From a virus, in IMG/VR virus record IMGVR_UViG_3300046003_005505, positions 1 through 35,914 of that record: 35,914 bases of DNA, one strand, 5' to 3'. This document shows positions 10,034 through 26,887 of this stretch, piece by piece; the first letter of the stretch is position 1, and each line of letters starts with the position of its first letter. The translations under genes and the position numbers were made by a program. The notes under the pieces were generated by a model. It ran no database searches. It was not told where the DNA came from and saw only the letters and a list, made by a program, of their open reading frames with translations.

Positions 10034-11374
10034 ATGGATAAAAAAGAAGAAATACTAAATCTGATTTCTCTCTATATAGAAGAGAAAAACAAAAACAAAA
10101 AGTGGACACCTGGAGAAGATTGGATACAATATTCTGGTCCATATTTTGACTCAAAAGAATATACTGCGGCTGTTGATTCATTACTTAGTGGTTGGTTAAT
10201 TTTAGGAGAAAAAGGTAGAGAATTTGAAAAGAAATTTTCTAGATTTTTAGGAAAAAATGATGGGATTTTAGTAAATTCAGGAAGCTCAGCTAATTTATTA
10301 ATGGTATCTTTATTAAAAACTAAACGAGGTGGTAAGTTACCTAAAGGAAGTAAGTTCATTACCCCAGTAGTTTGTTTTCCAACAACAATAAATCCAATAA
10401 TCCAATGTGGTTTTGAACCCGTATTTGTTGATGTTACATTACCTAGTTTAAATCTTGACTTAGATCAAGTAGAAAAATTACTTGAAAATGATGTAAATAA
10501 AGAAATCAAAGGTCTTATTTTTGCTCACGTATTAGGCAATCCACCAGATATGGATAGAATATTAGAAATCGTTAAAAAATATGATCTAATATTTCTAGAA
10601 GATTCTTGTGATGCATTGGGATCTACTTGGAATGATAAACCATTAGGATCATTTGGGGATGTATCAACTTGTTCTTTCTTTCCTGCTCATCATATGACTA
10701 TGGGAGAGGGGGGATTTGTAGCTGTAAATAATGCAAGACATAGAATGGCTTTGGCTTCATTGAGAGATTGGGGGAGAGCATGTTATTGCAATAGTGCAAA
10801 ACCAGGAAATATTATTGGAGGAACAGCGTGTGGTAATAGATTAAGTAACTGGTTTAAAGGACAAGATAATGTAATTTATGATCACAGATTTGTATTTGAA
10901 GAAATAGGTTTTAATTTAAAACCAACTGAAATGCAGGCAGCAATGGGATTAGTTCAATTAGATAAATTAGATGAAATGCATTCTAAAAGAAAGCTAAATT
11001 TCAAAAGAATGTATAATATATTCAAAAAATATGAACAGTGGATTTACTTACCAGAAACATTACCACAAGCCGATCCTTCATGGTTTGGATTTCTAATCAC
11101 TTTAAAAGATAATTGTATTTTTGAAAAGAATGACTTAGTAGAATATTTAGAAAACGCCAAAATCCAAACAAGATCATACTTTACAGGCAATGCTTTATTC
11201 CATCCTGCATACGAGGAATTAGCAGCTAATTATGAAAACCCAAAAGAACAATTCCCAATAGCTACTAAATCAAGTAAAGATACATTTTTTATGGGAGTAT
11301 ATCCAGGTTTAACCGAAGAACAATTAGATTATATTGAAGTAGTAGTTGATAGATTTTTTCAAAACTTAAAATAA
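10034..11374 (+). CDS. rfbH: NDP-sugar 3-dehydrase, RfbH/AscC (E1)-like, PMP and 2Fe-2S
   Basis: A 446-residue DegT-fold enzyme of the RfbH/E1 branch, which removes the C3 hydroxyl of a 4-keto-6-deoxy NDP-sugar on the way to 3,6-dideoxyhexoses. The usual PLP lysine is replaced by histidine in SFFPAHHMTMGEGG (His219-His220), as in E1, so it should use PMP without a Schiff base. The 2Fe-2S ligands are present: Cys192 (EDSCDALGS), Cys250 and Cys252 (GRACYC), with exactly 57 residues between the first two as in E1. The fourth, Cys266, comes after 13 residues rather than 7. No E3 reductase (RfbI/AscD) gene is in the window. Sequence evidence for the subfamily is strong; the exact sugar is unknown. 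Confidence 0.88.
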   Translation: MDKKEEILNLISLYIEEKNKNKKWTPGEDWIQYSGPYFDSKEYTAAVDSLLSGWLILGEKGREFEKKFSRFLGKNDGILVNSGSSANLLMVSLLKTKRGGKLPKGSKFITPVVCFPTTINPIIQCGFEPVFVDVTLPSLNLDLDQVEKLLENDVNKEIKGLIFAHVLGNPPDMDRILEIVKKYDLIFLEDSCDALGSTWNDKPLGSFGDVSTCSFFPAHHMTMGEGGFVAVNNARHRMALASLRDWGRACYCNSAKPGNIIGGTACGNRLSNWFKGQDNVIYDHRFVFEEIGFNLKPTEMQAAMGLVQLDKLDEMHSKRKLNFKRMYNIFKKYEQWIYLPETLPQADPSWFGFLITLKDNCIFEKNDLVEYLENAKIQTRSYFTGNALFHPAYEELAANYENPKEQFPIATKSSKDTFFMGVYPGLTEEQLDYIEVVVDRFFQNLK

Positions 11375-11376
11375 AT

Positions 11377-12321
11377 ATGAAAATATTATTAGCGGGTGGT
11401 TGTGGGTATGTAGGTACTCAATTAACAAAAACACTTAAAGAAAAAAATCATGATGTAATAATAGTTGACCTAGAATGGTTTGGTAATCATACTAATCAAC
11501 AAGTAATACACAAAAATATATTTGATTTAACTGTTGATGAATTAGTAGGATTTGATTGTGTTGTTTTCATAGCAGGATTATCTAATGATCCTATGGCTGA
11601 TTTTTCACCATCTGAAAATTTTATCCAAAATTCGGCATGCCCATCTTATTTATCTTATATAGCTAAAAAAGCTGGAATAAAGAAATTTATATACGCTAGT
11701 AGTTGTTCTGTGTATGGATATTCAGATGATCGTTTTTCAACAGAAGAAGATCCTACATTTACTCAACATCCATATGGTATTTCTAAATTACAAGGAGAAA
11801 GAGGCGTATTACAAATAGCTGATGATAATTTTAAAGTAATAGCCTTAAGAAAAGGAACAGTATGTGGGTATTCTCCTAGAATGAGATTAGATTTAGTTTT
11901 AAATACTATGTTTAAACATGCTATAACTACATCTACTATTACTGTTAATAATCCTGAAATTTGGAGACCCATTCTATCGATTCAAGATGCAGTTCAAGCA
12001 TATACCAATGCCATTGAAATGGATATTCCATCAGGAACATATAACGTATTCTCAGATAATTATCAAATAAAAGATTTAGCATTAATTGTTAAAAACAAAA
12101 TAGAAAAAACATATCCTGATAAACAAATAGCCATAAATAGTCTTAATATACATGATGTTAGAAATTATAAAGTAAGTTTGGAGAAGGCAAAAAAGTGTCT
12201 TAAATTCAACCCACAATATAAAGTCAAAGAAATTATAAATGACTTAATAAATAATTATAATAATTTTTCTGATTTTGATAATGATCTATACTATAATATA
12301 AATACCTTTAAAAAAATATGA
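11377..12321 (+). CDS. NAD-dependent epimerase/dehydratase (extended SDR)
   Basis: A 314-residue extended SDR acting on a nucleotide sugar. The cofactor motif is GGCGYVGTQL at the N-terminus, followed by the acidic VDLEWFG that favours NAD(H). VFIAGLSNDPM, YASSCSVYGYS with the catalytic Ser, and HPYGISKLQGE with Tyr-x3-Lys follow. It starts two bases after the 3-dehydrase and could reduce or epimerise its 4-keto product, a guess from position. A plain epimerase is equally possible. Confidence 0.82.
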   Translation: MKILLAGGCGYVGTQLTKTLKEKNHDVIIVDLEWFGNHTNQQVIHKNIFDLTVDELVGFDCVVFIAGLSNDPMADFSPSENFIQNSACPSYLSYIAKKAGIKKFIYASSCSVYGYSDDRFSTEEDPTFTQHPYGISKLQGERGVLQIADDNFKVIALRKGTVCGYSPRMRLDLVLNTMFKHAITTSTITVNNPEIWRPILSIQDAVQAYTNAIEMDIPSGTYNVFSDNYQIKDLALIVKNKIEKTYPDKQIAINSLNIHDVRNYKVSLEKAKKCLKFNPQYKVKEIINDLINNYNNFSDFDNDLYYNINTFKKI

Positions 12322-12629
12322 TAATATACATTGATATAGATGAGACGATATGCAAAAGTCCTAATGTACCTGATTATAATACTAGTAAACCTATTAAAAA
12401 AAATATAGCTAAAGCAAATAAATTATACGACCAAGGCCATACTATAGTTTATTGGACTGCTAGAGGAACTAAAACAGGGATTGACTGGACTAATGTAACT
12501 AAATTACAATTTAAAGAATGGGATGTAAAATACCATGATTTAAAATTTGGAAAACCCTCATATGACCTATTCATAGATGATAAAAATATGAATACCAAAG
12601 ATTGGGGTTCAGATATTAAATTAAAATAA
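12318..12629 (+). CDS. Small HAD-family phosphatase
   Basis: A 103-residue capless HAD hydrolase similar to small phosphatases in capsule loci. Motif I is IYIDIDETIC with the nucleophile Asp pair, motif II is VYWTARG, a lysine lies in FGKPSYDLF, and motif IV is FIDDKN. It overlaps the preceding SDR by four bases (ATGA) and is followed by the NeuB-like gene, so a role in dephosphorylating a sugar-phosphate intermediate is plausible. The substrate is unknown. Confidence 0.8.
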   Translation: MIIYIDIDETICKSPNVPDYNTSKPIKKNIAKANKLYDQGHTIVYWTARGTKTGIDWTNVTKLQFKEWDVKYHDLKFGKPSYDLFIDDKNMNTKDWGSDIKLK

Positions 12630-12635
12630 AATATT

Positions 12636-13712
12636 ATGAGTAATAAAATTTTTAAAAATCTGTTTGTATTAGAGTTAGCTAACAACCACTGGGGTTCTTT
12701 AAGCAGAGGAAAACAAATTGTAAGAGAATTTGCTAAGGTTGTTAAGGAGAATAAAATTAAAGCCGCCATTAAACTACAGTTTAGGGATGTGGATAACTTT
12801 ATTCATAAAGATTTTAAACAAGAAGGCAAAGATACAGAATTGGCTGCTTTACCTAAGCGTACTAGATATATTCAAAAGACTTTTAAAACAAAATTAACAT
12901 ATGATGAATTTAAGGAGTTGATTGATTATATTAAAAAACATGATTGTATCCCAATGTCAACTCCATTTGATGAAAAATCAGTTGATTGGTGTGTACAAAT
13001 GGATTTATCTATTATTAAAATAGCTAGTTCAGATATCAATGACTGGTTATTACTAAATAAAATAGCTAGTACTAAAAAGCCTGTAATTATATCTACAGGT
13101 GGCGCTAATGATAAACAAATTGATGACGTTATAAAGTTCTTTACTAACCGTAATATACCTATAGCTGTTAATCATTGTGTGTCAAAATATCCAAGTGAAG
13201 ATAATGAATTAGAATTAGATCAGATTGATTATCTAAAGTTAAAATATCCAGATTTAGTTATTGGTTTATCTACACATGAATATCATGATTGGCATTCTTC
13301 AATGTATATTTCATATGCTAAAGGAGTTAGAACTTGGGAAAGACACATTGACATCCCTTATCCAGCAGGTCATGAGCAAAAAGAAGTATCAAATTATTGT
13401 TCATTACCTAGTCAAGTAGATGAATGGTTTAAAGCTTTTAATAAAGCTAAAATTATGTGTGGTACATCATTAAATGAAAGAAGAGTTATTGATGAAAAAG
13501 AATCTAAGTATTTAGAATCACTTCATAGAGGTCTTTATTTAAAACAAGACTTAGCTAAAGGTACAAAAATAACTATAGAACATTTATATAGTGCTATTCC
13601 TTATCAAAAAGAAATAAAACATATTACCTCTAGAGAATACTTTGATAGTGATTTTATCTTAAATAAAGATTTAAAGAAAGATGCACCTTTAACTAAAAAC
13701 GATATCATTTAA
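12636..13712 (+). CDS. neuB: NeuB-like nonulosonic acid synthase with SAF domain
   Basis: A 358-residue enzyme of the sialic-acid synthase family, which condenses phosphoenolpyruvate with an amino sugar to a nine-carbon acid. The TIM-barrel part starts with FVLELANNHWGSLSRGKQIV and includes AIKLQFRDVD, IPMSTPFDEKSVDW, IIKIASSDINDW, VIISTGGAN, VNHCVSKYPS and IGLSTHEYH. A C-terminal SAF domain (LHRGLYLKQDLAKGTKIT to TKNDII) follows from about residue 295. Length matches the family (about 345). No CMP-nonulosonate synthetase (NeuA) was found nearby. The gene stop overlaps the next start as TAATG. Confidence 0.88.
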   Translation: MSNKIFKNLFVLELANNHWGSLSRGKQIVREFAKVVKENKIKAAIKLQFRDVDNFIHKDFKQEGKDTELAALPKRTRYIQKTFKTKLTYDEFKELIDYIKKHDCIPMSTPFDEKSVDWCVQMDLSIIKIASSDINDWLLLNKIASTKKPVIISTGGANDKQIDDVIKFFTNRNIPIAVNHCVSKYPSEDNELELDQIDYLKLKYPDLVIGLSTHEYHDWHSSMYISYAKGVRTWERHIDIPYPAGHEQKEVSNYCSLPSQVDEWFKAFNKAKIMCGTSLNERRVIDEKESKYLESLHRGLYLKQDLAKGTKITIEHLYSAIPYQKEIKHITSREYFDSDFILNKDLKKDAPLTKNDII

Positions 13713-15448
13713 TGAAAGTTTCGGACATTATTATAAATTTTCTAGAAGAAAAAGGAATTAATACAGTCTTCACCATATCAGGTGGAGGCTGCATTCATTT
13801 AGTAGATTCTTTACGTAAATCTAATATGGATGTTATTTGCCCACACCATGAGCAAGCAGCATTAATGGCTAGTGAAGGATATTATAGAATGACCAATAAA
13901 ATGGCTGCTAATATTGTAACCACAGGTCCTGGAGGTACAAATACCATAACAGGTTTACTTGGTTTATGGTTAGATAGCATACCCTCTATTATTATTTCAG
14001 GACAAGCACCTTCTAATCAATTATCTAAAGGAACAGGATGTAGACAAATAGGTGATCAAGAATTTGATATTATTAGTATAGTTAAACCTATGACTAAGTA
14101 TGCTAAGATGATTACTAATGCCAATTCTATATCTAGTGAATTAGAAAAAGCTTATCAAATGGCTTTAGAAGGTAGACCTGGTCCAGTTTGGTTAGACATA
14201 CCTTTAGATATACAAGGTGCTAATGTAGATAAAGATAACCAATTAAGTACATTTTACCCTACTCCAAACTATGACTGTCCAAAACAAGGTTTAGAGCGTT
14301 TCAAAGAAATACTTGAACAGTCTAAAAAACCATTAATTGTAGTAGGTAGTGGGATTAGATTATCTAACACTTATAATGAATTAAATACATTCCTAACTAA
14401 AACAGGAATCCCAGTAGTAACAGGACCTCACTCAGGTGTTGATGCTGTTGATAATACTTTAGAATATTATAGTGGTAGAATTGGTATCTTAGGCCAGTTA
14501 ACATCAAATAAAATAGTTCAAGAAGCTGATTTAATTATATCATTAGGTAGTAGATTACCTGTTAAAATGACAGGTTATAATATTCCTGAATTTTCTCCTA
14601 ATTCAAAGAAAATATTTGTAGATATTGATGAGTTTGAAGTTAAAAAACATAAATTCAATGTTGATTTAGCTATTATAACTGATCTTAAAAATTTCTTCTC
14701 TGGTATTAGTGATACGAATTATACTTTAGATATATCTGAATGGCAATCATTTGTTCGTGAAACTAGAGTAATACAACAGTATTATTATCCAAAACATGAG
14801 CAATTAAAGGAATATGCTAGTTTCTATTACTTAATAAGTAAAGCATCTAAAATATTTAAAAATACTCCTATAGTCACTAGTAATGGTACAGCTCACGTTA
14901 TAACGTTACAAACATACCAACTAAATAAAGACCAAAGATTATTTACAAACGTTGGTTGTGCTAGTATGGGTTATGGATTACCAGCAGCAATAGGTGCTTG
15001 TATAGGTAATAATAAACAAGACGTAATATGTGTAGAGGGAGATGGTAGTATAATGATGAATTTACAAGAACTTGAAACTATAAGAGGTTACAAGTTACCT
15101 GTAAAAACAATCTTAATTAATAATGATGGTTATTTATCAATTAAATTATCTCAAGAGGCATTCTTTAAAGGAATGGAATTTGCTAGTAGTCCATCTACAG
15201 GAGTTACAATACCTTCATTTAAGAAAATAGCAGATGCCTTTGAAATACCTTATATGAGTATAAAAAATAATAGTGAAATAGAAACCGTGTTACAAGATAT
15301 GATGAACCATAAAGGGCCTTGTATTGTAGAAATATTTACACATCCTAAAGAAAGACATGAACCTAAAGTAACTCATAAAGGGGTAGATGAAAACGGAAAA
15401 ATAATTCCAGGAACATTAACAGATATGTTTATATCAGACACATTTTAA
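13712..15448 (+). CDS. ThDP-dependent acetolactate-synthase-like enzyme
   Basis: A 578-residue three-domain thiamine-diphosphate enzyme. The N-terminal Pyr domain holds the activating Glu47 in PHHEQAALMASEGYYR and TTGPGGTN. The central domain (about 190-340) has the YYSGRIGILGQLTSN and ISLGSRL pattern of the FAD-binding acetolactate-synthase group. The C-terminal PP domain carries the metal motif GDGS at 443-446 with NND at 470-472. It lies in the precursor block after NeuB and before an SDR. ALS homologues such as YerE add a two-carbon unit to a keto sugar, and IolD acts on a cyclitol-derived dione; either precedent is more apt here than valine synthesis. The reaction is inferred only. Confidence 0.86.
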   Translation: MKVSDIIINFLEEKGINTVFTISGGGCIHLVDSLRKSNMDVICPHHEQAALMASEGYYRMTNKMAANIVTTGPGGTNTITGLLGLWLDSIPSIIISGQAPSNQLSKGTGCRQIGDQEFDIISIVKPMTKYAKMITNANSISSELEKAYQMALEGRPGPVWLDIPLDIQGANVDKDNQLSTFYPTPNYDCPKQGLERFKEILEQSKKPLIVVGSGIRLSNTYNELNTFLTKTGIPVVTGPHSGVDAVDNTLEYYSGRIGILGQLTSNKIVQEADLIISLGSRLPVKMTGYNIPEFSPNSKKIFVDIDEFEVKKHKFNVDLAIITDLKNFFSGISDTNYTLDISEWQSFVRETRVIQQYYYPKHEQLKEYASFYYLISKASKIFKNTPIVTSNGTAHVITLQTYQLNKDQRLFTNVGCASMGYGLPAAIGACIGNNKQDVICVEGDGSIMMNLQELETIRGYKLPVKTILINNDGYLSIKLSQEAFFKGMEFASSPSTGVTIPSFKKIADAFEIPYMSIKNNSEIETVLQDMMNHKGPCIVEIFTHPKERHEPKVTHKGVDENGKIIPGTLTDMFISDTF

Positions 15449-15451
15449 TAT

Positions 15452-16078
15452 ATGATTATATTTTTAACAGGAGGTAGAGGTGGAATTGGTTCTACTATTA
15501 GTAAAGCTTTAAAACAAGCAGGTATAAATGTTATTGAACCAACTTCAAAAGAATTAGATTTAAATAGTAATTTTAAAGTTAACTACAAAGTAGAAGGCTT
15601 TATCCACTGCGCGGGTGTTAATAATATAAAGAGACACAGCGATGTAACCTCAGAAGAATTTACTAATTTATTTAACATAAACACATTTAGCTTTATAAAA
15701 TTGTGTGGGCAACTTAAGTTCACTCCAGGAAGTAATATTATTGCTATTGGTTCTCTATATGCTACTAATACTAAAGAAAATCGTATCCAATATGCTATGT
15801 CTAAACACGCTATGTATGGTGCTGTAAAAACATTAGCATTAGAAAAATCATCAGAAGGTATTAAAGTGAATATGGTTTCTCCAGGATTTGTAGATACTGA
15901 AATGACTAGAAAAAATAATTCTAGTGATCGACTTAATTATTTAGAAAAAAACATACCCCTTGGATTAACAGATGCTTGGGAAATTGCTAATTTGTGTGTA
16001 TATTTAATTAAAAATAATAGAGCAATCACGGGTCAAAATATATTAGTTGATGGTGGTGCTAGTTTAAAAGGAATATAA
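15452..16078 (+). CDS. Classical SDR oxidoreductase
   Basis: A 208-residue short-chain dehydrogenase similar to 3-oxoacyl-ACP reductases. The cofactor motif is TGGRGGIGS at 6-14, followed by HCAGVNN, the catalytic Ser in IAIGSLYAT, Tyr-x3-Lys in YAMSKHAMYGAVKTLALE, and the closing ITGQNILVDGGASL. It is short for the family (usually 240-250) because the alpha-beta units after the first strand are compact. It stands between the ThDP enzyme and the cyclase and probably reduces or oxidises their sugar or cyclitol intermediate. Confidence 0.83.
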   Translation: MIIFLTGGRGGIGSTISKALKQAGINVIEPTSKELDLNSNFKVNYKVEGFIHCAGVNNIKRHSDVTSEEFTNLFNINTFSFIKLCGQLKFTPGSNIIAIGSLYATNTKENRIQYAMSKHAMYGAVKTLALEKSSEGIKVNMVSPGFVDTEMTRKNNSSDRLNYLEKNIPLGLTDAWEIANLCVYLIKNNRAITGQNILVDGGASLKGI

Positions 16079-17100
16079 TGAATACATTTACAATACAAAA
16101 TACACCGTTTACAATTTCAACAGAAATTAAGAACAACATTTTAATCAAATCACATCCAAAAGATTATCAAGTAACATTTGAAAAATTTACAAATATATTT
16201 ACTGATAATCAGGTTGTATTAGTAGATAAAAATGTTCAATCATTATACAATGTACAACATTCTAAAATGATTGTAATAGAGGCTACTGAATTAGATAAAT
16301 CAATAGAAACTGTACTTTATATTTGTGAGAAATTATTAAGATTTAATTTTGATAAAGGCTGTACCTTAGTTGTTATTGGGGGTGGTATTATACAAGATCT
16401 AGGAGCATTTACAGCAAAAATATTTAAAAGGGGAATTAATTGGGTATATTATCCAACAACATTATTATCACAATGTGATAGTTGTATTGGTGGTAAAACT
16501 GCTCTTAATTTTAAACAATATAAAAATCAATTAGCACTATTTTCAGCCCCTCAAAAGGTAATTATAGATACTAATTTTTTAAAAACACTAAAACCAGAAG
16601 ACATAATTTCAGGTTATGGTGAAATTATTAAATTATATTTAGTAGGTGGCCAGTATTATGTAGATAATATTGATAAGTTTGATTTTGATACAGCAATTTA
16701 TCATTCATTATCAATTAAGAAAGCAGTTGTTGATGCTGATGAGTTTGAGATATTAGAAAGAAAATCACTTAACTACGGACACTCATTTGGTCATGTAATA
16801 GAACCACTTGTAAATTATAAGATTCCTCATGGTGAGGCTGTAATGTTAGGAATTGAAATTATAAATCAATTATTTACTAAATCAGAGGCTATAAGCAACA
16901 TAGTATCAAAATATACTAGCTTAGAAAAAATTAAAAATATAGACATCGATAAATTAATATCAGGTTTAAAAACAGATAAAAAAGTAACTAATGGTATTAT
17001 ATCATTAGTAGTAGTCCCTGAACCAGGTAAAACTATATTTGTTGATCAAGTTATTGATGAAGAATTATATAAAAAGATTTATGAAATATTTACTAATTGA
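16078..17100 (+). CDS. Dehydroquinate-synthase-like sugar phosphate cyclase
   Basis: A 340-residue protein of the sugar-phosphate-cyclase superfamily that includes AroB, DOI synthase and EEVS. NAD-binding VVIGGGIIQDLGAF is at 98-111, then YPTTLLSQCDSCIGGKTALN at 125-144. Zinc ligands are Glu182 (GYGEIIK), His235 (NYGHSFGH) and His251 (IPHGEAV), with Arg228, Asn232 and His239 conserved. The substrate loop reads KNQLALFSAP where AroB has KN..G.FYQP. No other shikimate gene is present and neighbours are sugar enzymes, including an FGGY-like kinase that overlaps it. It may therefore cyclise a sugar phosphate other than DAHP, which is inference. Confidence 0.85.
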   Translation: MNTFTIQNTPFTISTEIKNNILIKSHPKDYQVTFEKFTNIFTDNQVVLVDKNVQSLYNVQHSKMIVIEATELDKSIETVLYICEKLLRFNFDKGCTLVVIGGGIIQDLGAFTAKIFKRGINWVYYPTTLLSQCDSCIGGKTALNFKQYKNQLALFSAPQKVIIDTNFLKTLKPEDIISGYGEIIKLYLVGGQYYVDNIDKFDFDTAIYHSLSIKKAVVDADEFEILERKSLNYGHSFGHVIEPLVNYKIPHGEAVMLGIEIINQLFTKSEAISNIVSKYTSLEKIKNIDIDKLISGLKTDKKVTNGIISLVVVPEPGKTIFVDQVIDEELYKKIYEIFTN

Positions 17101-18031
17101 TTTTGGAGCATCCTTTATTAAGAGTATAATCTATAATAAGGATACAGACACATACAGCGATGCTTGTAATATTGTTTCCCCATTTCAAACCCAAAATGAA
17201 ATAACTAAACAAGAATTATTATCAATTTTACAAAGATTAATTTCAAGTAATATTGATGGGGTATTGATATGCAGTATACTTGGTGGTTACTATGAAGGTG
17301 ATACTTACCATTCCTGGAAGGGAGAACAATTAACTAAAAATTATTGCCTTGTAAGTGGATTATTTTCTGACACAGATTCATTTCATATTCACGAACATCA
17401 TCAAGAAACAACCAAATCTGGACCATATGAAACTGGTTTAAAAGTATTAGGTTACATAAATAATATTCCGGTATATAGCGCTTTAGCTGATACTTTATGT
17501 GTTATTGAATCATTAGTTATAGGTGAAAACGATGTTGTTGTTAATATGGGGACAGGTTCCCAAGTTATTACTCAAAACGGTAAAAGTAGCTTTATCCCTG
17601 CTGGTAGAGCATTTTTAACTTTTAATGAATTTTTCAAATCATTAGGGCTAGATATGTTTAATATGTTAAAAACAATAACAATAGACGATGTTGAAAATAG
17701 TAGTTTAGTTGTTGATTTGAATACATTCCCACAAGCAATTAAATACCATAAAAATCCTTCAGGGGGACAGATATTAGGAATTACTGAGGGAAATTTTAAT
17801 ATTACAAATCTGTTGGGATCTATATTAAAAAATTTTGTAGAGCAATATAGAGAATATATATTAGACAGTGGTTGTACTAATATTGTTTTAACAGGTGGTA
17901 TTCCTAGAAAATTATCTATTATTAAACAATTATTTGAGATATATTACCTATCATTTACTGTTGTTCAAGACATTAATGATGTGGAAAATACTCATAGAGG
18001 CATGACTTCATATATTAAAAAACACTTATGA
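17081..18031 (+). CDS. FGGY/ASKHA-type carbohydrate kinase, short form
   Basis: A 316-residue kinase-like protein. It opens with KYLLIDFGASFIKSIIYN, the phosphate-1 loop of the actin-like ATPase fold, and has VVVNMGTGSQVITQ as phosphate-2 near residue 167 and IVLTGGIPRK as the adenosine motif near the end. YSALADTLCVIESL just before phosphate-2 resembles sedoheptulokinase and related FGGY kinases, but those are 450-550 residues long, so this is a compact version. I choose ATG 17081 because the family motif starts there; an upstream in-frame ATG at 17039 adds only a basic stretch inside the cyclase gene. It overlaps the cyclase gene by 20 bases. Confidence 0.7.
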   Translation: MKYLLIDFGASFIKSIIYNKDTDTYSDACNIVSPFQTQNEITKQELLSILQRLISSNIDGVLICSILGGYYEGDTYHSWKGEQLTKNYCLVSGLFSDTDSFHIHEHHQETTKSGPYETGLKVLGYINNIPVYSALADTLCVIESLVIGENDVVVNMGTGSQVITQNGKSSFIPAGRAFLTFNEFFKSLGLDMFNMLKTITIDDVENSSLVVDLNTFPQAIKYHKNPSGGQILGITEGNFNITNLLGSILKNFVEQYREYILDSGCTNIVLTGGIPRKLSIIKQLFEIYYLSFTVVQDINDVENTHRGMTSYIKKHL

Positions 18032-18807
18032 GAATCTTAATAACAGGCGGAAATGGTTATATAGCCAAAAGTATTTACAACAAGTTAAAGGATAAACACG
18101 ATATTACCTTAATTACAAGAAATGATTTTGATTTAACTAATAGTAGAGCGACTAATTCATTCTTTGATAAAAAATACTTTGATGTACTTATACATACTGC
18201 AATAGTAGGTGGTAGTAGGTTAAAACAAGATGATGAACATGTATTAGATGATAATTTAATAATGTACTATAATCTTTTGATGAATAAAGGAAATTATGGA
18301 AAGTTCATAAGTCTAGGATCAGGTGCTGAATTATTGATGAAAGATACACCTTATGGTTTAAGCAAACATGTTATTAAAGAATCTATTTTAAATAAAAGTA
18401 ATTTTTACAATATAAGAATTTTTGGTGTTTTTGATGAAAATGAACTAGATACTAGATTTATTAAAGCTAATATAAAAAGATATATAAATAATGAACCAAT
18501 GATGATTCAAAATAAACGAATGTCATTTTTTTATATGGACGATCTAATTATGCTAATTAATCATTATATAACATCTAATAGCGGATCTTTAATTACCGAA
18601 AGCAATTGCTCTTACATTACATCTACTTCATTATTAGATATAGCAAATATAATAAACGAATTAGATGATCATAAAGTACCAATTTATATGGATACACAAG
18701 TAAGTAAAGATTATGAATCAAAGCTAAACGCACCATATGGTTTAAATTATATAGGTTTAAAACAGGGTATTAAAAACGTTTATAATAAATTGAAAAATGA
18801 ATATTAA
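18028..18807 (+). CDS. NAD-dependent sugar epimerase/reductase (SDR)
   Basis: A 259-residue SDR with RILITGGNGYIAKSIYNKL at the N-terminus, HTAIVGGSRL, SLGSGAEL, the Tyr-x3-Lys motif in TPYGLSKHV, and RIFGVFDENE. It is similar in size and outline to short RmlD or fucose-synthase-like reductases. The start overlaps the kinase stop as ATGA and its end overlaps the nucleotidyltransferase fusion by 11 bases. Substrate unknown. Confidence 0.8.
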   Translation: MRILITGGNGYIAKSIYNKLKDKHDITLITRNDFDLTNSRATNSFFDKKYFDVLIHTAIVGGSRLKQDDEHVLDDNLIMYYNLLMNKGNYGKFISLGSGAELLMKDTPYGLSKHVIKESILNKSNFYNIRIFGVFDENELDTRFIKANIKRYINNEPMMIQNKRMSFFYMDDLIMLINHYITSNSGSLITESNCSYITSTSLLDIANIINELDDHKVPIYMDTQVSKDYESKLNAPYGLNYIGLKQGIKNVYNKLKNEY

Positions 18808-20158
18808 GCTAATTATATTCGATTTGGATGGAGTTTTAGTTGAAGCTAAAAATATACATTTTGAAACTCTTAATAAAGCGTTAGGAGAAAAATATGCCAT
18901 AGAGTGGAATGAGCATTTATCGATATATGATGGTCTAAAGACTAATCAAAAACTAGACATGCTAACAAAATATAAAGGCTTACCGGTTGAAGAACATAAA
19001 CGTATCTGGGAGGATAAACAAAAATACACATTAGCTGCCTTATCTAATCTAAAGCCTAACTATCAGTTACAAACTTGTATGGACATGCTTATTGCACACG
19101 GTTATAAATTAGCAGTATGTTCTAATAGTATTCGCAAAACAGTATTAACAGTATTATCTAAATTTGATATTATTGATCGTTTTGATTTAATTACATCGAA
19201 TGAGGATATAAAGAATAGTAAACCCCATCCTGAAATGTATTGGGATACTATGAGTAAAATGGGAGTATTACCTGAAGAAACTTTAATAGTTGAAGATTCT
19301 CCTTTTGGATTATTAGCTGCAAGTAGAAGTAAAGCTAATGTTATGAGAGTTGGTTCTCCAAAAGAAGTTTCGTATCCTAACATCTACAAACACTTAAATA
19401 AAGAAAAAATGAATATTATTCCTAAGTGGAAAGATGATAAACTAAATGTGTTAATACCAATGGCTGGAGCTGGTTCTAGATTCGAACAGGCTGGTTATAC
19501 ATTCCCTAAACCATTAATTGAGGTTAGAAACAAACCAATGATCCAAGTAGTTGTCGAAAATCTTAATATTGATGCCAACTATATTTACATTGTACAGAAA
19601 AAACACCGAGAAAAATACAATTTAAACACTTTACTCAACTTAATTACTCCTAATTGCAAAATCGTCGAAGTAGATGGATTAACTGAAGGAGCGGCTTGTA
19701 CGGCGTTATTAGCTAAAGAATTTATCAATAATAACAACCCATTATTATTTGCCAACTCAGATCAATTTGTAGAGTGGGATTCTAATGAATTTATGTATAA
19801 AATGCAAGAGACGAATGCTGATGGAGGAATTGTTACATTTACAGCTACTCACCCTAAATGGTCTTTTGCTAAAGTAAATGAAACCACAGGTCTAGTAGAG
19901 GAAGTAGCAGAGAAAAACCCAATTTCAGATATTGCAACTGTAGGATACTATTATTGGAAACATGGTTCTGATTTCACTAAGTATGCTGAGAATATGATTA
20001 GCAAAGACATTCGTGTAAATAATGAATACTATGTATGTCCCGTATTTAATCAAGCAATACAAGATAATAAGGAGATAAGAACCTTTAACGTAAAAGGGAT
20101 GTGGGGGTTAGGAACTCCTGAAGATTTAAAATATTACCTAGAAAATTACAAATTATGA
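18797..20158 (+). CDS. Fused HAD phosphatase and sugar nucleotidyltransferase
   Basis: A 453-residue two-domain protein. Residues 1 to about 205 form a beta-phosphoglucomutase-like HAD unit: FDLDGVLV with Asp9/Asp11, VCSNS near 108, KNSKPHPEMY near 139-148, and VEDSPFG near 165-171. Residues from about 216 form an NTP-transferase domain: PMAGAGSRFEQAGYTFPKPL at 221-240, then LLFANSDQFVEW and GTPEDLKYY near the end, typical of RmlA-like pyrophosphorylases. One chain could thus remove a phosphate or isomerise a sugar phosphate and then form the NDP-sugar, much as GmhB and HddC do in NDP-heptose synthesis. The fused order and substrate are inferred. Confidence 0.86.
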   Translation: MNIKLIIFDLDGVLVEAKNIHFETLNKALGEKYAIEWNEHLSIYDGLKTNQKLDMLTKYKGLPVEEHKRIWEDKQKYTLAALSNLKPNYQLQTCMDMLIAHGYKLAVCSNSIRKTVLTVLSKFDIIDRFDLITSNEDIKNSKPHPEMYWDTMSKMGVLPEETLIVEDSPFGLLAASRSKANVMRVGSPKEVSYPNIYKHLNKEKMNIIPKWKDDKLNVLIPMAGAGSRFEQAGYTFPKPLIEVRNKPMIQVVVENLNIDANYIYIVQKKHREKYNLNTLLNLITPNCKIVEVDGLTEGAACTALLAKEFINNNNPLLFANSDQFVEWDSNEFMYKMQETNADGGIVTFTATHPKWSFAKVNETTGLVEEVAEKNPISDIATVGYYYWKHGSDFTKYAENMISKDIRVNNEYYVCPVFNQAIQDNKEIRTFNVKGMWGLGTPEDLKYYLENYKL

Positions 20159-23438: not shown

Positions 23439-24086
23439 ATGAAAAATGTTTATGATATAACAAATGAATTCGAAAGACGATTAGCTGAGTATACAGGAGC
23501 TCCTTATGTAGTGACTGTTGATAATCAAAGTAATGGTTTATTCTTATCATTATATTACGAAAATCATGTAAATAAAAGTATCAAAACTGATACAATCACT
23601 ATTCCAAATAGAACATATCCTTCAGTACCATGCGAAATAATACATGCTGGTCTAAAAGTAGACTTTAAAAAAGTTAAAGGAAAAACAATTAAAGGATCTT
23701 ATAATTTGGAAGGAAGTAACGTTTGGGATTCTGCATTAAGTTTTACTACTGGAATGTATAAACCGGAAACTCATATGTGTGTCTCATTTACTGGCCCATA
23801 TAAACATTTTAAATTAAGTAAGGGAGGAGCCATATTAACTGATAGTCATGAAGCATATCTATGGTTTAGAAGAGCAAGATATTCAGGTAGAAGAGAATGT
23901 TCATATCATGATGATCATTTTGATATGTTAGGGTGGAATTTCTATATGATGCCTGAATTAGCGGCTCGCGGTTTATTGTTAATGGGGCAATTTTATGATG
24001 GAGAAACACCAAAACAAAATCCTGATGTAGAAATGCCATATCCTGATTTGTCTAAATTTAAAATTTATACTCAAGGTGGTGAATAA
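23439..24086 (+). CDS. Short DegT/DnrJ-like PLP protein
   Basis: A 215-residue DegT/DnrJ/EryC1/StrS-type protein, about half to two thirds of normal length (360-400). It keeps FERRLAEYTGAPYVVTVDNQSNGLFLSL, DTITIPNRTYPSVPCEIIHAG and the PLP-lysine region SFTGPYKHFKLSKGGAILTD. The C-terminal small domain is almost absent, ending after the LGWNFYMMPELAARGLL dimer-contact segment. The frame is intact, so this is a compact form rather than a broken gene. An aminotransferase on a keto sugar is the likely role. A 31-base AT-only leader precedes it, with repeated AATAAAA. Confidence 0.74.
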   Translation: MKNVYDITNEFERRLAEYTGAPYVVTVDNQSNGLFLSLYYENHVNKSIKTDTITIPNRTYPSVPCEIIHAGLKVDFKKVKGKTIKGSYNLEGSNVWDSALSFTTGMYKPETHMCVSFTGPYKHFKLSKGGAILTDSHEAYLWFRRARYSGRRECSYHDDHFDMLGWNFYMMPELAARGLLLMGQFYDGETPKQNPDVEMPYPDLSKFKIYTQGGE

Positions 24087-25747: not shown

Positions 25748-26887
25748 ATGACATTAGAACAGATCAAAAATCATTTATTAATATGTTCTGATGCTTTTGC
25801 ACCAAGTTTAGATAGTTATGTAAATATTGAAGATTATTCTAAAAAAATATTTGAACAAGCCATTTTATTTTATAAATTTGATGATGATAAATTAATTGGT
25901 TTAGTAGCAGCTTATAATAATCCTGTAGAGAAATTGGGGTGGATTACTAATGTTAGTGTAGATCCTAACTATTCTAAACAAGGTATAGCAACTGAGTTAT
26001 TAAATCAATGTTATGAATTTTTTAAAAATAAAGATTATTTAAATATATTTTTAGAAGTATTTATAGAAAATAAAAAAGCAATTAAATTATATATTAAACA
26101 CGGATTTATTACATATAAAATAAAAAAAGATAAAATGATATTAAAACAGGAACTAAATAAAAGAGACTACAACCAAGAATATAAAGACACTTTAAAGCAT
26201 AAATATGCATATAATTTTGATTTTGATATAATGCATCATTATATGATAGAATCATTTAAAAATCATTTTGTTAAAGGTAATTGTCTTGAATTAGGTAGTT
26301 TTAAGGGAGATTTTACTAAACGTCTTATTCCACATTTTGATGATATTACTTGCGTAGAAGCCTCAGATGAAGCTATTGAAATATGTAAACAAAAATTAGA
26401 TTATAATATTACATATTTTAATTCATTATTTGAAAATGTAGAATTACCTAAAAAATATGATAATATTATTTTAACTCATGTTTTAGAACACATTGATGAT
26501 CCTATAGGATTATTATCAAGAATTAAAAACGAATGGTTATCTAAAGATGGTAAATTATTTTTAGTTTGTCCAAATGCAAATGCTCCTTCAAGACAAATAG
26601 CTGTTAAAATGAAGCTTATTTCTCACAATTCCGCTATTACTCCATCTGAAATAAAACATGGTCATAGAATTACTTATAGTTTAGATACCTTAGAAAGAGA
26701 TGCCAAAGAAGGAGGATTGAATGTTATTTATCGTTCTGGAATATTTTTTAAAGCACTAGCTAATTTTCAGTGGGATAAATTACTTAATACTGATATTATC
26801 AGTAAAGAATATCTAGATGGTTGCTATCAGTTAGGACAACAATATCCAGATTTGTGTTCTAGTATTATGTTAATTTGTAAAAAATAA
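25748..26887 (+). CDS. GNAT acetyltransferase fused to SAM methyltransferase
   Basis: A 379-residue two-domain protein. Residues 1 to about 135 are a GNAT N-acetyltransferase with VSVDPNYSKQGIATELL at 69-85 as the acetyl-CoA motif and ENKKAIKLYIKHGF as motif B. Residues from about 155 form a class I methyltransferase with CLELGSFKGDF at 179-189, CVEASDEAI, and ILTHVLEHIDDPIGLL. The C-terminal HGHRITYSLDTLERDAKEGG resembles sugar-modifying methyltransferases. It suggests both acetylation and methylation of one amino-sugar substrate, which is inference. Confidence 0.85.
   Translation: MTLEQIKNHLLICSDAFAPSLDSYVNIEDYSKKIFEQAILFYKFDDDKLIGLVAAYNNPVEKLGWITNVSVDPNYSKQGIATELLNQCYEFFKNKDYLNIFLEVFIENKKAIKLYIKHGFITYKIKKDKMILKQELNKRDYNQEYKDTLKHKYAYNFDFDIMHHYMIESFKNHFVKGNCLELGSFKGDFTKRLIPHFDDITCVEASDEAIEICKQKLDYNITYFNSLFENVELPKKYDNIILTHVLEHIDDPIGLLSRIKNEWLSKDGKLFLVCPNANAPSRQIAVKMKLISHNSAITPSEIKHGHRITYSLDTLERDAKEGGLNVIYRSGIFFKALANFQWDKLLNTDIISKEYLDGCYQLGQQYPDLCSSIMLICKK

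Follow-up and report, generated by a model that had tools for sequence, protein, structure and literature searches.

A swappable phage gene block joins a non-AroB, non-EEVS cyclase to a predicted YerE-like carboligase in a surface-sugar locus

We analyzed a 35,914-nucleotide stretch of viral DNA (IMG/VR record IMGVR_UViG_3300046003_005505, hereafter the window), which comes from the genome of a T4-like phage and includes a surface-sugar locus. Sequence comparison indicates that four of its genes, encoding a predicted ThDP-dependent carboligase (TPP), a short-chain dehydrogenase (SDR), a dehydroquinate-synthase-fold sugar-phosphate cyclase (SPC) and a short FGGY-type carbohydrate kinase (KIN), are inserted as an exchangeable block between NeuB and EPIM in a group of T4-like phages. 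The explanation that we favor, and to which we give an even chance, is a C-branching surface-sugar pathway like those of YerE and ErwE, in which the SPC block would supply a carbocyclic partner.

Results

All of the genes described here lie on the + strand. The SDR gene (15452..16078; PF13561, 1.4e-33) is followed by SPC (16078..17100, 340 aa), KIN (17081..18031, 316 aa, with its ATG at 17081), EPIM, a member of the NAD-dependent epimerase/reductase family (18028..18807; PF01370, 2.5e-14), and HAD-NT, a fusion of a HAD phosphatase and an RmlA-like nucleotidyltransferase (18797..20158; HAD_2, 1.1e-29, and NTP_transferase, 1.7e-12). The last four genes (16078-20158) are all intact and, as the original prediction had described, each overlaps the next, by 20 bp (SPC/KIN), 4 bp (KIN/EPIM) and 11 bp (EPIM/HAD-NT). 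The SPC/KIN overlap was seen again in nearly all virus loci carrying the SPC cassette, indicating that the gene arrangement is not due to chance. The most informative neighbors, all of which had been missed, are SDR, NeuB, a NeuB-family synthase (12636..13712; PF03102, 3.5e-39), YerE-like TPP (13712..15448; best PDB match 8rph/8rpi/8rpj, 2.5e-106) and RfbH, an RfbH/DdhC-like PLP enzyme of the CDP-4-keto-6-deoxyglucose 3-dehydrase family (10034..11374; NF011936, 454 bits, cut-off 423). RfbH is associated with the cassette and is not in every case adjacent to it. A small HAD-family phosphatase-like protein (12318..12629; weak match to BT0820/EcbF-BcbF phosphatases, ~1e-5) is often encoded directly 5' of NeuB, in loci with or without SPC.

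The comparison set consisted of 36 non-redundant virus loci carrying both SPC and the thiamine enzyme. Scanning virus contigs with a single SPC sequence returned nothing; the loci were found via TPP and then by SPC alignment. The conserved unit is NeuB-TPP-SDR-SPC-KIN-EPIM (12636-18807 in the window). In the TPP phylogeny, 14, 8 and 19 rows sorted by module into single clades with support of 100/99 to 100/100, a sorting of which part could come from inheritance of the whole cassette. At a NeuB identity of 75-80%, TPP was 67.9% identical within a module and 52.5% across modules, and EPIM showed no such split. EPIM, a candidate reductase of the branched intermediate, follows TPP whether SPC is present or absent, and its sequences are not sorted by module. 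SDR travels with SPC and, in the majority of loci from viruses and bacteria, lies directly 5' of it. Because TPP differs in sequence according to whether SPC is present, and NeuB and EPIM do not, TPP-SDR-SPC-KIN is a swappable block. The proposal of a four-gene pathway unit stands for SPC, KIN and EPIM, which belong to the conserved unit, but not for HAD-NT, which has an 84% identical counterpart in a phage that has no SDR, SPC or KIN (L025) and is therefore separate from the SPC module. KIN was present in 17 of the 18 NeuB-type virus loci, as expected if cyclase and kinase belong together, and in none of the 19 loci having HpcH without NeuB; few independent lineages lie behind this association of KIN with NeuB.

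TPP is a predicted YerE/JanthE-like carboligase, closest to YerE-like enzymes among the solved ThDP enzymes. Its best solved relative in the PDB, 8rph, scored 360 bits and the next, an acetolactate synthase, 272 bits; 8rph and 8rpj both represent the YerE-like enzyme JanthE (PMC12188165). Enzymes like YerE couple 2-oxo acids with ketones, and the preferred acids of ErwE are 4-hydroxy-2-oxo acids (PMC12247030). In SPC loci and in most other loci, the gene adjoining TPP encodes a maker of 2-oxo acids, which is NeuB, an HpcH-type aldolase (PF03328) or, once, a ketopantoate hydroxymethyltransferase (PF02548). NeuB of the window scored 119-128 bits against equivalog models with cut-offs of 400 and 340 (PseI, 128 versus 340). 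Its nearest solved structure was 3g8r (183 bits), with sialate and pseudaminate synthases at 57-69 bits. By these scores it is a family synthase, predicted to make a 3-deoxy-2-ulosonate from PEP and an aldose, and far from the known sialate and pseudaminate synthases.

RfbH was found in 11 of 17 NeuB-type and 8 of 19 HpcH-type virus loci, and a dTDP-glucose 4,6-dehydratase-like gene lay no more than nine genes away in 16/17 and 17/19, respectively; the window fragment contains RfbH but no 4,6-dehydratase reaching the cut-off. CMP-sialate-type transferases were near 1/17 and 0/19 of the viral loci with SPC and TPP, and near 48/69 of the other bacterial SPC loci. Their near absence from the viral loci suggests that the NeuB product is not simply CMP-activated. 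As had been proposed, the pathway probably leads to a surface sugar in NDP-activated form. In one bacterial locus (L037), DdhA, DdhB and RfbH score over the cut-off beside NeuB-SDR-SPC-KIN-TPP; DdhA and DdhB lie within nine genes in only 2 of 6 bacterial loci, some of which are short contigs. For a bacterial locus in Afipia (L041) we considered, as a lead only, a link to bradyrhizose, a sugar for whose synthesis the genes are reported to be unknown (PMC4743980).

SPC matched PF01761 (1.4e-33) and DHQS_C (1.5e-22), both above the cut-off. The best-scoring model was TIGR04425 (294 bits, below its curated cut-off of 400), which NCBIfam titles AroB-related putative sugar phosphate phospholyase (cyclizing); all 36 SPC relatives scanned matched it at E <= 0.001. 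TIGR01357 (aroB) gave 236 bits, below its cut-off of 305, and the AroB profile an E of 7e-70. The phylogeny placed SPC apart from AroB with support of 100/99, in a third clade whose nearest model is TIGR04425. The 2-epi-5-epi-valiolone and desmethyl-4-deoxygadusol synthases (EEVS and DDGS) formed a single clade in the part of the tree that contains AroB, opposite to SPC of the window. The AF2 model of SPC (pLDDT 95) had DHQS as its closest solved folds (E 2e-24), and the 2-deoxy-scyllo-inosose synthase (DOIS) BtrC was the weakest of the PDB sequence matches listed (3e-19), with many DHQS ranking ahead of it when folds were searched. SPC has kept its zinc ligands (E182, H235 and H251, aligned with E194, H271 and H287 of AroB), and all 15/15 DHQS active-site positions compared are identical in SPC and AroB. 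After K161-N162 the loop changes, reading YKNQLALFSAP in SPC versus GKNxxGAFxxP in AroB, and shikimate-pathway families were absent from the scanned genes neighboring SPC. The original prediction, which had pointed to the zinc ligands, the unusual loop and the lack of shikimate genes and had doubted that the cyclase is a true AroB, agrees with these data. Its suggestion of an EEVS-like sedoheptulose-7-phosphate cyclase does not. In EEVS and DDGS, K250, N268, H275 and K356 are replaced by M, D/A, P and T/V/S, respectively; since SPC retains K, N, H and K at these positions, sedoheptulose 7-phosphate is not supported as its substrate. SPC is thus neither AroB nor EEVS and belongs to a third, TIGR04425-type clade. 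TIGR04425 cyclases are spread over many bacterial phyla; our literature search on TIGR04425 and on carbocyclic O-antigen cyclases returned nothing, including a substrate for any TIGR04425-type cyclase.

KIN alone (searched as 17084-18031, leaving off the initial Met) had no significant match in Pfam, NCBIfam, PHROG or PDB sequences, nor in searches of phages and plasmids. Longer bacterial orthologues, however, matched PF00370 (57 bits, over the cut-off) and XylB (2e-18), and the AF2 model of KIN (pLDDT 91.9) matched glycerol, xylulose and gluconate kinases in Foldseek. The phosphate and adenosine motifs are conserved, and the putative catalytic Asp is invariant. A six-sequence KIN profile gave only noise against the PDB, caspases included, and it was the bacterial orthologues and the model that settled the family. 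They support the earlier view of KIN as an FGGY-type kinase. Its supposed resemblance to sedoheptulokinase was not borne out, since we found no sedoheptulokinase-specific feature or match and the fold search points to FGGY kinases in general. Ketoses and polyols serve as substrates of FGGY kinases.

SPC had no match in PHROG, and a search of the BFVD viral structures for dehydroquinate-synthase-fold cyclases gave none at E <= 0.001. In tblastn against phages and plasmids, SPC gave low-identity (<40%) matches only, mostly annotated or apparent AroB. A Paracoccus match that adjoins a shikimate kinase was taken as AroB and set aside. Our searches came upon no pathway of this kind in named phage genomes, and in bacteria they came upon it only in part; the statement that nothing similar is known in phages thus holds for the annotated phage collection, PHROGs and BFVD.

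Discussion

The pathway that we favor takes its reactions and their order from family chemistry, and its frame from the gene content, block swapping, phylogeny and active-site residues described above. NeuB would convert PEP and an aldose into a 3-deoxy-2-oxo acid. TPP would decarboxylate a 2-oxo acid and transfer its acyl unit to a ketone, as a rule C4 of an NDP-4-keto-(3),6-(di)deoxyhexose; EPIM would then modify the branched compound, for instance through reduction of the ketone so formed. KIN would phosphorylate a sugar or ulosonate, SPC would cyclise the phosphorylated product by dehydroquinate-synthase chemistry (oxidation, phosphate loss and aldol closure), and SDR may adjust a ring carbonyl or hydroxyl. 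The resulting carbocycle would be one of the two substrates of the matched TPP variant, and the pathway would end in a nucleotide sugar, C-branched and bearing a carbocycle, for the surface of the host or of the virion. Because SPC keeps the carboxylate-binding residues and KIN accompanies NeuB, we lean toward a phosphorylated NeuB-derived ulosonate as the SPC substrate, with a carbocyclic ketone acceptor for TPP nearly as likely. If SPC consumed NeuB's own product, it would use up the 2-oxo group for TPP, which makes that order chemically awkward.

Alternatively, KIN could phosphorylate a ketose, a usual type of FGGY substrate, SPC could turn it into a cyclic ketone, and TPP could add the NeuB-derived acyl group to this ring and not to an NDP-4-keto sugar. 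NeuB is the same with or without SPC while TPP changes, as if one TPP substrate had changed, and YerE-like enzymes accept cyclic ketones (PMC12247030). However, SPC loci still hold 4,6-dehydratase-like genes and RfbH, and the CDP-dideoxyhexose set adjoins the cassette in L037, both suggesting an NDP-4-keto sugar as acceptor, so that we place this scheme on the unlikely side. It is improbable that some other surface sugar, such as an ulosonic acid, is decorated by a TPP using pyruvate while the cyclase makes a cyclitol independently in a shared operon; surface-sugar genes in these phages do cluster in a loose, modular way, but a separate pathway does not predict a TPP sequence that varies with whether SPC is there. 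We consider it similarly improbable that an EEVS-like SPC is fed sedoheptulose 7-phosphate by a sedoheptulokinase, with HAD-NT leading to an NDP-cyclitol or NDP-heptose. The FGGY-like KIN does overlap SPC, and a phosphoheptose-isomerase-like SIS protein accompanies distant bacterial SPC relatives in 52/69 cases, but the NeuB/KIN clade has no SIS, HAD-NT is unlinked to SPC, and both the residues and the tree position of EEVS/DDGS differ from those of SPC. Least probable of all is a functional dehydroquinate synthase that substitutes for AroB and feeds the host shikimate pathway in infection, which fits the conserved active site, the AroB profile match and the nearest folds, but not the sub-threshold aroB score, the closer TIGR04425 model, the separate clade, the changed LALFSAP loop or the polysaccharide enzymes that, with no shikimate genes, are always alongside.

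If the C-branching pathway with an SPC-supplied carbocycle is correct, much of a C-branched, carbocyclic surface-sugar pathway is phage-encoded and its central block is exchanged as a unit, which would point to host or virion surface chemistry changed by phages and offer a phylogenetic handle on the substrate of TIGR04425 cyclases. The cassette would also predict which ThDP enzyme variants take carbocyclic partners. More tentatively, we envisage a new class of nucleotide sugars, in which a deoxyhexose is C-branched with a carbocycle from a non-AroB, non-EEVS cyclase; phages would carry the complete swappable block, and the O-antigens of the bacterial relatives might use the same cassette.

Among known systems, EEVS and DDGS share the fold superfamily of SPC, and their cyclase step precedes activated cyclitols in known pathways, but SPC has none of their four substitutions and branches opposite them in the tree. 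AroB has the same fold, zinc ligands and 15 active-site positions compared, and SPC departs from it in clade, in a score under the cut-off, in the loop after K161-N162 and in having no shikimate genes nearby. TIGR04425 provides the best model for SPC and shares its SDR neighbor and surface-polysaccharide context, but SPC scores 294 against the cut-off of 400 and carries the LALFSAP loop. The company of SPC differs as well, since NeuB, TPP and a kinase of the FGGY family take the place of SIS, Gfo/Idh, 2-hydroxyacid dehydrogenase and a CMP transferase. The pathways of YerE, ErwE and JanthE perform ThDP-dependent C-branching for O-antigen sugars (yersiniose A, erwiniose). The phage cassette resembles them in that JanthE is the nearest solved relative of TPP, RfbH stands alongside, together with DdhA/DdhB in bacteria, and TPP adjoins genes for a maker of 2-oxo acids and for a member of the epimerase/reductase family. 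It differs from them in that the donor apparently comes from NeuB or HpcH enzymes while they take pyruvate directly, and in that a phage-borne cassette swaps its cyclase, kinase and SDR together with the ThDP enzyme.

Phage background and the predicted gene set

The 35,914-base virus record is, on sequence grounds, T4-like, because it encodes a clamp loader (257 bits in the family search) and matches DNA ligase and exonuclease families, and because its best tblastn relatives are Microcystis phage Mel-JY01 (40%), followed by cyanophages and Pelagibacter phage HTVC008M (about 35%). By eye, a GroEL-like open reading frame (3-1292) runs off the left end; 25748-26887 encodes a GNAT acetyltransferase-methyltransferase fusion, and 23439-24086 a DegT-family protein (215 aa, only the profile start matched), possibly truncated. 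The four overlapping genes of the original prediction were present as described, with overlaps confirmed and key residues intact. The short FGGY-type kinase (KIN, 17081-18031) starts at 17081, and our KIN alignments began at 17084, so they lack the first Met.

One member of the proposed cyclase set did not hold. The HAD phosphatase-nucleotidyltransferase fusion (18797-20158) is 84% identical to L025:13402-14757 of a second phage with different neighbouring sugar modules. Because L025 is without SDR, cyclase and KIN, we place the fusion outside the cyclase module.

The cyclase and the kinase

The sugar-phosphate cyclase (SPC, 16078-17100) scored best against TIGR04425 (294 bits, cut-off 400) and reached 236 against the AroB model, under the cut-off of 305. 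An 80-row tree, with long branches flagged among the AroB rows, separated AroB, EEVS and DDGS from SPC and the bacterial TIGR04425-type proteins (100/99); the window SPC grouped with other virus SPCs and six bacterial ones (L036-L041) in a clade of 24 rows (100/99). In the alignment SPC kept 15 of the 15 dehydroquinate synthase (DHQS) active-site positions compared, whose letters come from the alignment itself and whose names follow A. nidulans DHQS numbering. EEVS and DDGS are altered at four such positions, all kept in SPC. Both tree and residues thus speak against the EEVS-like cyclase originally proposed. The AF2 model (pLDDT 95) matched solved DHQS best and DOIS somewhat lower; no BFVD viral structure matched SPC at E <= 0.001.

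Family searches gave no match above cut-off for the window KIN. The bacterial orthologue in L037 is an FGGY protein (PF00370, 57 bits, cut-off 28.8; XylB, 2e-18), and the KIN model (pLDDT 91.9) matched glycerol, xylulose and gluconate kinases (TM about 0.65-0.73 on query), with a candidate catalytic Asp and glycine-rich motifs conserved. No feature identifying sedoheptulose as the substrate was found in the family searches, orthologue, model or motifs.

Gene company and probable block exchange

Virus contigs were scanned with the ThDP-dependent enzyme (TPP, 13712-15448; 32 loci) and with the SPC alignment (55 loci, partly the same contigs). The comparison set comprised 36 non-redundant loci, each with SPC near TPP and an EPIM-like epimerase/reductase gene: 19 of HpcH-aldolase type, 16 of NeuB+KIN type, and L132 with both makers. 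Two architectures dominate: NeuB-TPP-SDR-SPC-KIN-EPIM, which is that of the window (NeuB, 12636-13712; SDR, 15452-16078; EPIM, 18028-18807), and HpcH-SDR-SPC-TPP-EPIM, kinase absent, a large second phage-locus family (L138-L170). A 37th locus, L015, has NeuB and no KIN. KIN presence/absence was 17/1 with NeuB versus 0/19 with HpcH (exact test, p about 1e-9, although the loci are related and so represent few independent events). SPC-less loci also exist, as NeuB-TPP or HpcH-TPP with EPIM; in virus contig L028, a ketopantoate hydroxymethyltransferase homologue (11790-12758; PF02548, over cut-off) adjoins TPP and EPIM, SPC being absent. The pathway was not found in the annotated phage collection at the sensitivity used; among the hits there (H1-H14, H75-H99), several records filed as phage are probably host DNA by appearance, with genes for aroB or acetolactate synthase.

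The TPP tree followed module type, with one clade each for 14 viral NeuB+SPC rows (100/99), eight NeuB-only rows (100/100) and 19 HpcH+SPC rows (100/99); the NeuB+SPC rows L135, L015, L035 and L136 lay outside the main clade of their type. At 75-80% NeuB identity, TPP identity was 67.9% within a module versus 52.5% between modules, and TPP identity was still about 52% in the two pairs from different modules whose NeuB proteins are 85-97% identical. Between SPC-bearing and SPC-less loci, HpcH was about 75% identical and TPP 48%. Because TPP splits by module whereas EPIM identity does not, we read TPP-SDR-SPC-KIN as a unit that is probably swapped whole, with NeuB and EPIM on either side, and TPP as apparently matched to the SPC product. 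Alternatively, joint inheritance of linked genes could explain part of the TPP sorting.

A putative C-branching pathway

NeuB and HpcH enzymes yield 3-deoxy- or 4-hydroxy-2-oxo acids. The nearest solved structures to TPP were 8rph/8rpi/8rpj (360 bits), then acetolactate synthases (272); 8rph and 8rpj are JanthE, a YerE-like enzyme (PMC12188165). As reported in PMC12247030, the donor for YerE is pyruvate, from which activated acetaldehyde passes to CDP-3,6-dideoxy-4-keto-glucose; the preference of ErwE is for longer 4-hydroxy-2-oxo acids, and cyclic ketones are also accepted as substrates. The L037 cassette is preceded by glucose-1-phosphate cytidylyltransferase (480 bits), CDP-glucose 4,6-dehydratase (510 bits) and RfbH (753 bits), all over cut-off; RfbH is present in the window, where no 4,6-dehydratase was found at cut-off. 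EF-P, FolD and ribosomal protein L9 genes, read by eye, suggest that L036, L039 and L041 lie on bacterial chromosomes. NeuB, SPC, KIN and TPP occur together in L041, which comes from Afipia (Nitrobacteraceae). Bradyrhizose is a product of photosynthetic Bradyrhizobium; the biosynthetic genes of that sugar were reported as unknown (PMC4743980).

Taken together, our reading is of a YerE/ErwE-like C-branching pathway to which the SPC block would supply a putative carbocyclic partner. SPC may act on the NeuB product after phosphorylation, which fits its carboxylate-binding residues and the KIN-NeuB link, or it may make a separate ketone acceptor, an option consistent with 2-oxo group chemistry.

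In a third virus architecture (L140, L142, L143, L144, L160), SPC is accompanied by a CTP-transferase (PF02348 in L160), a DegT-like protein and a SIS-like protein. The SPCs of these loci group in a single clade (100/100) in the 80-row tree, and the arrangement resembles bacterial TIGR04425 loci.
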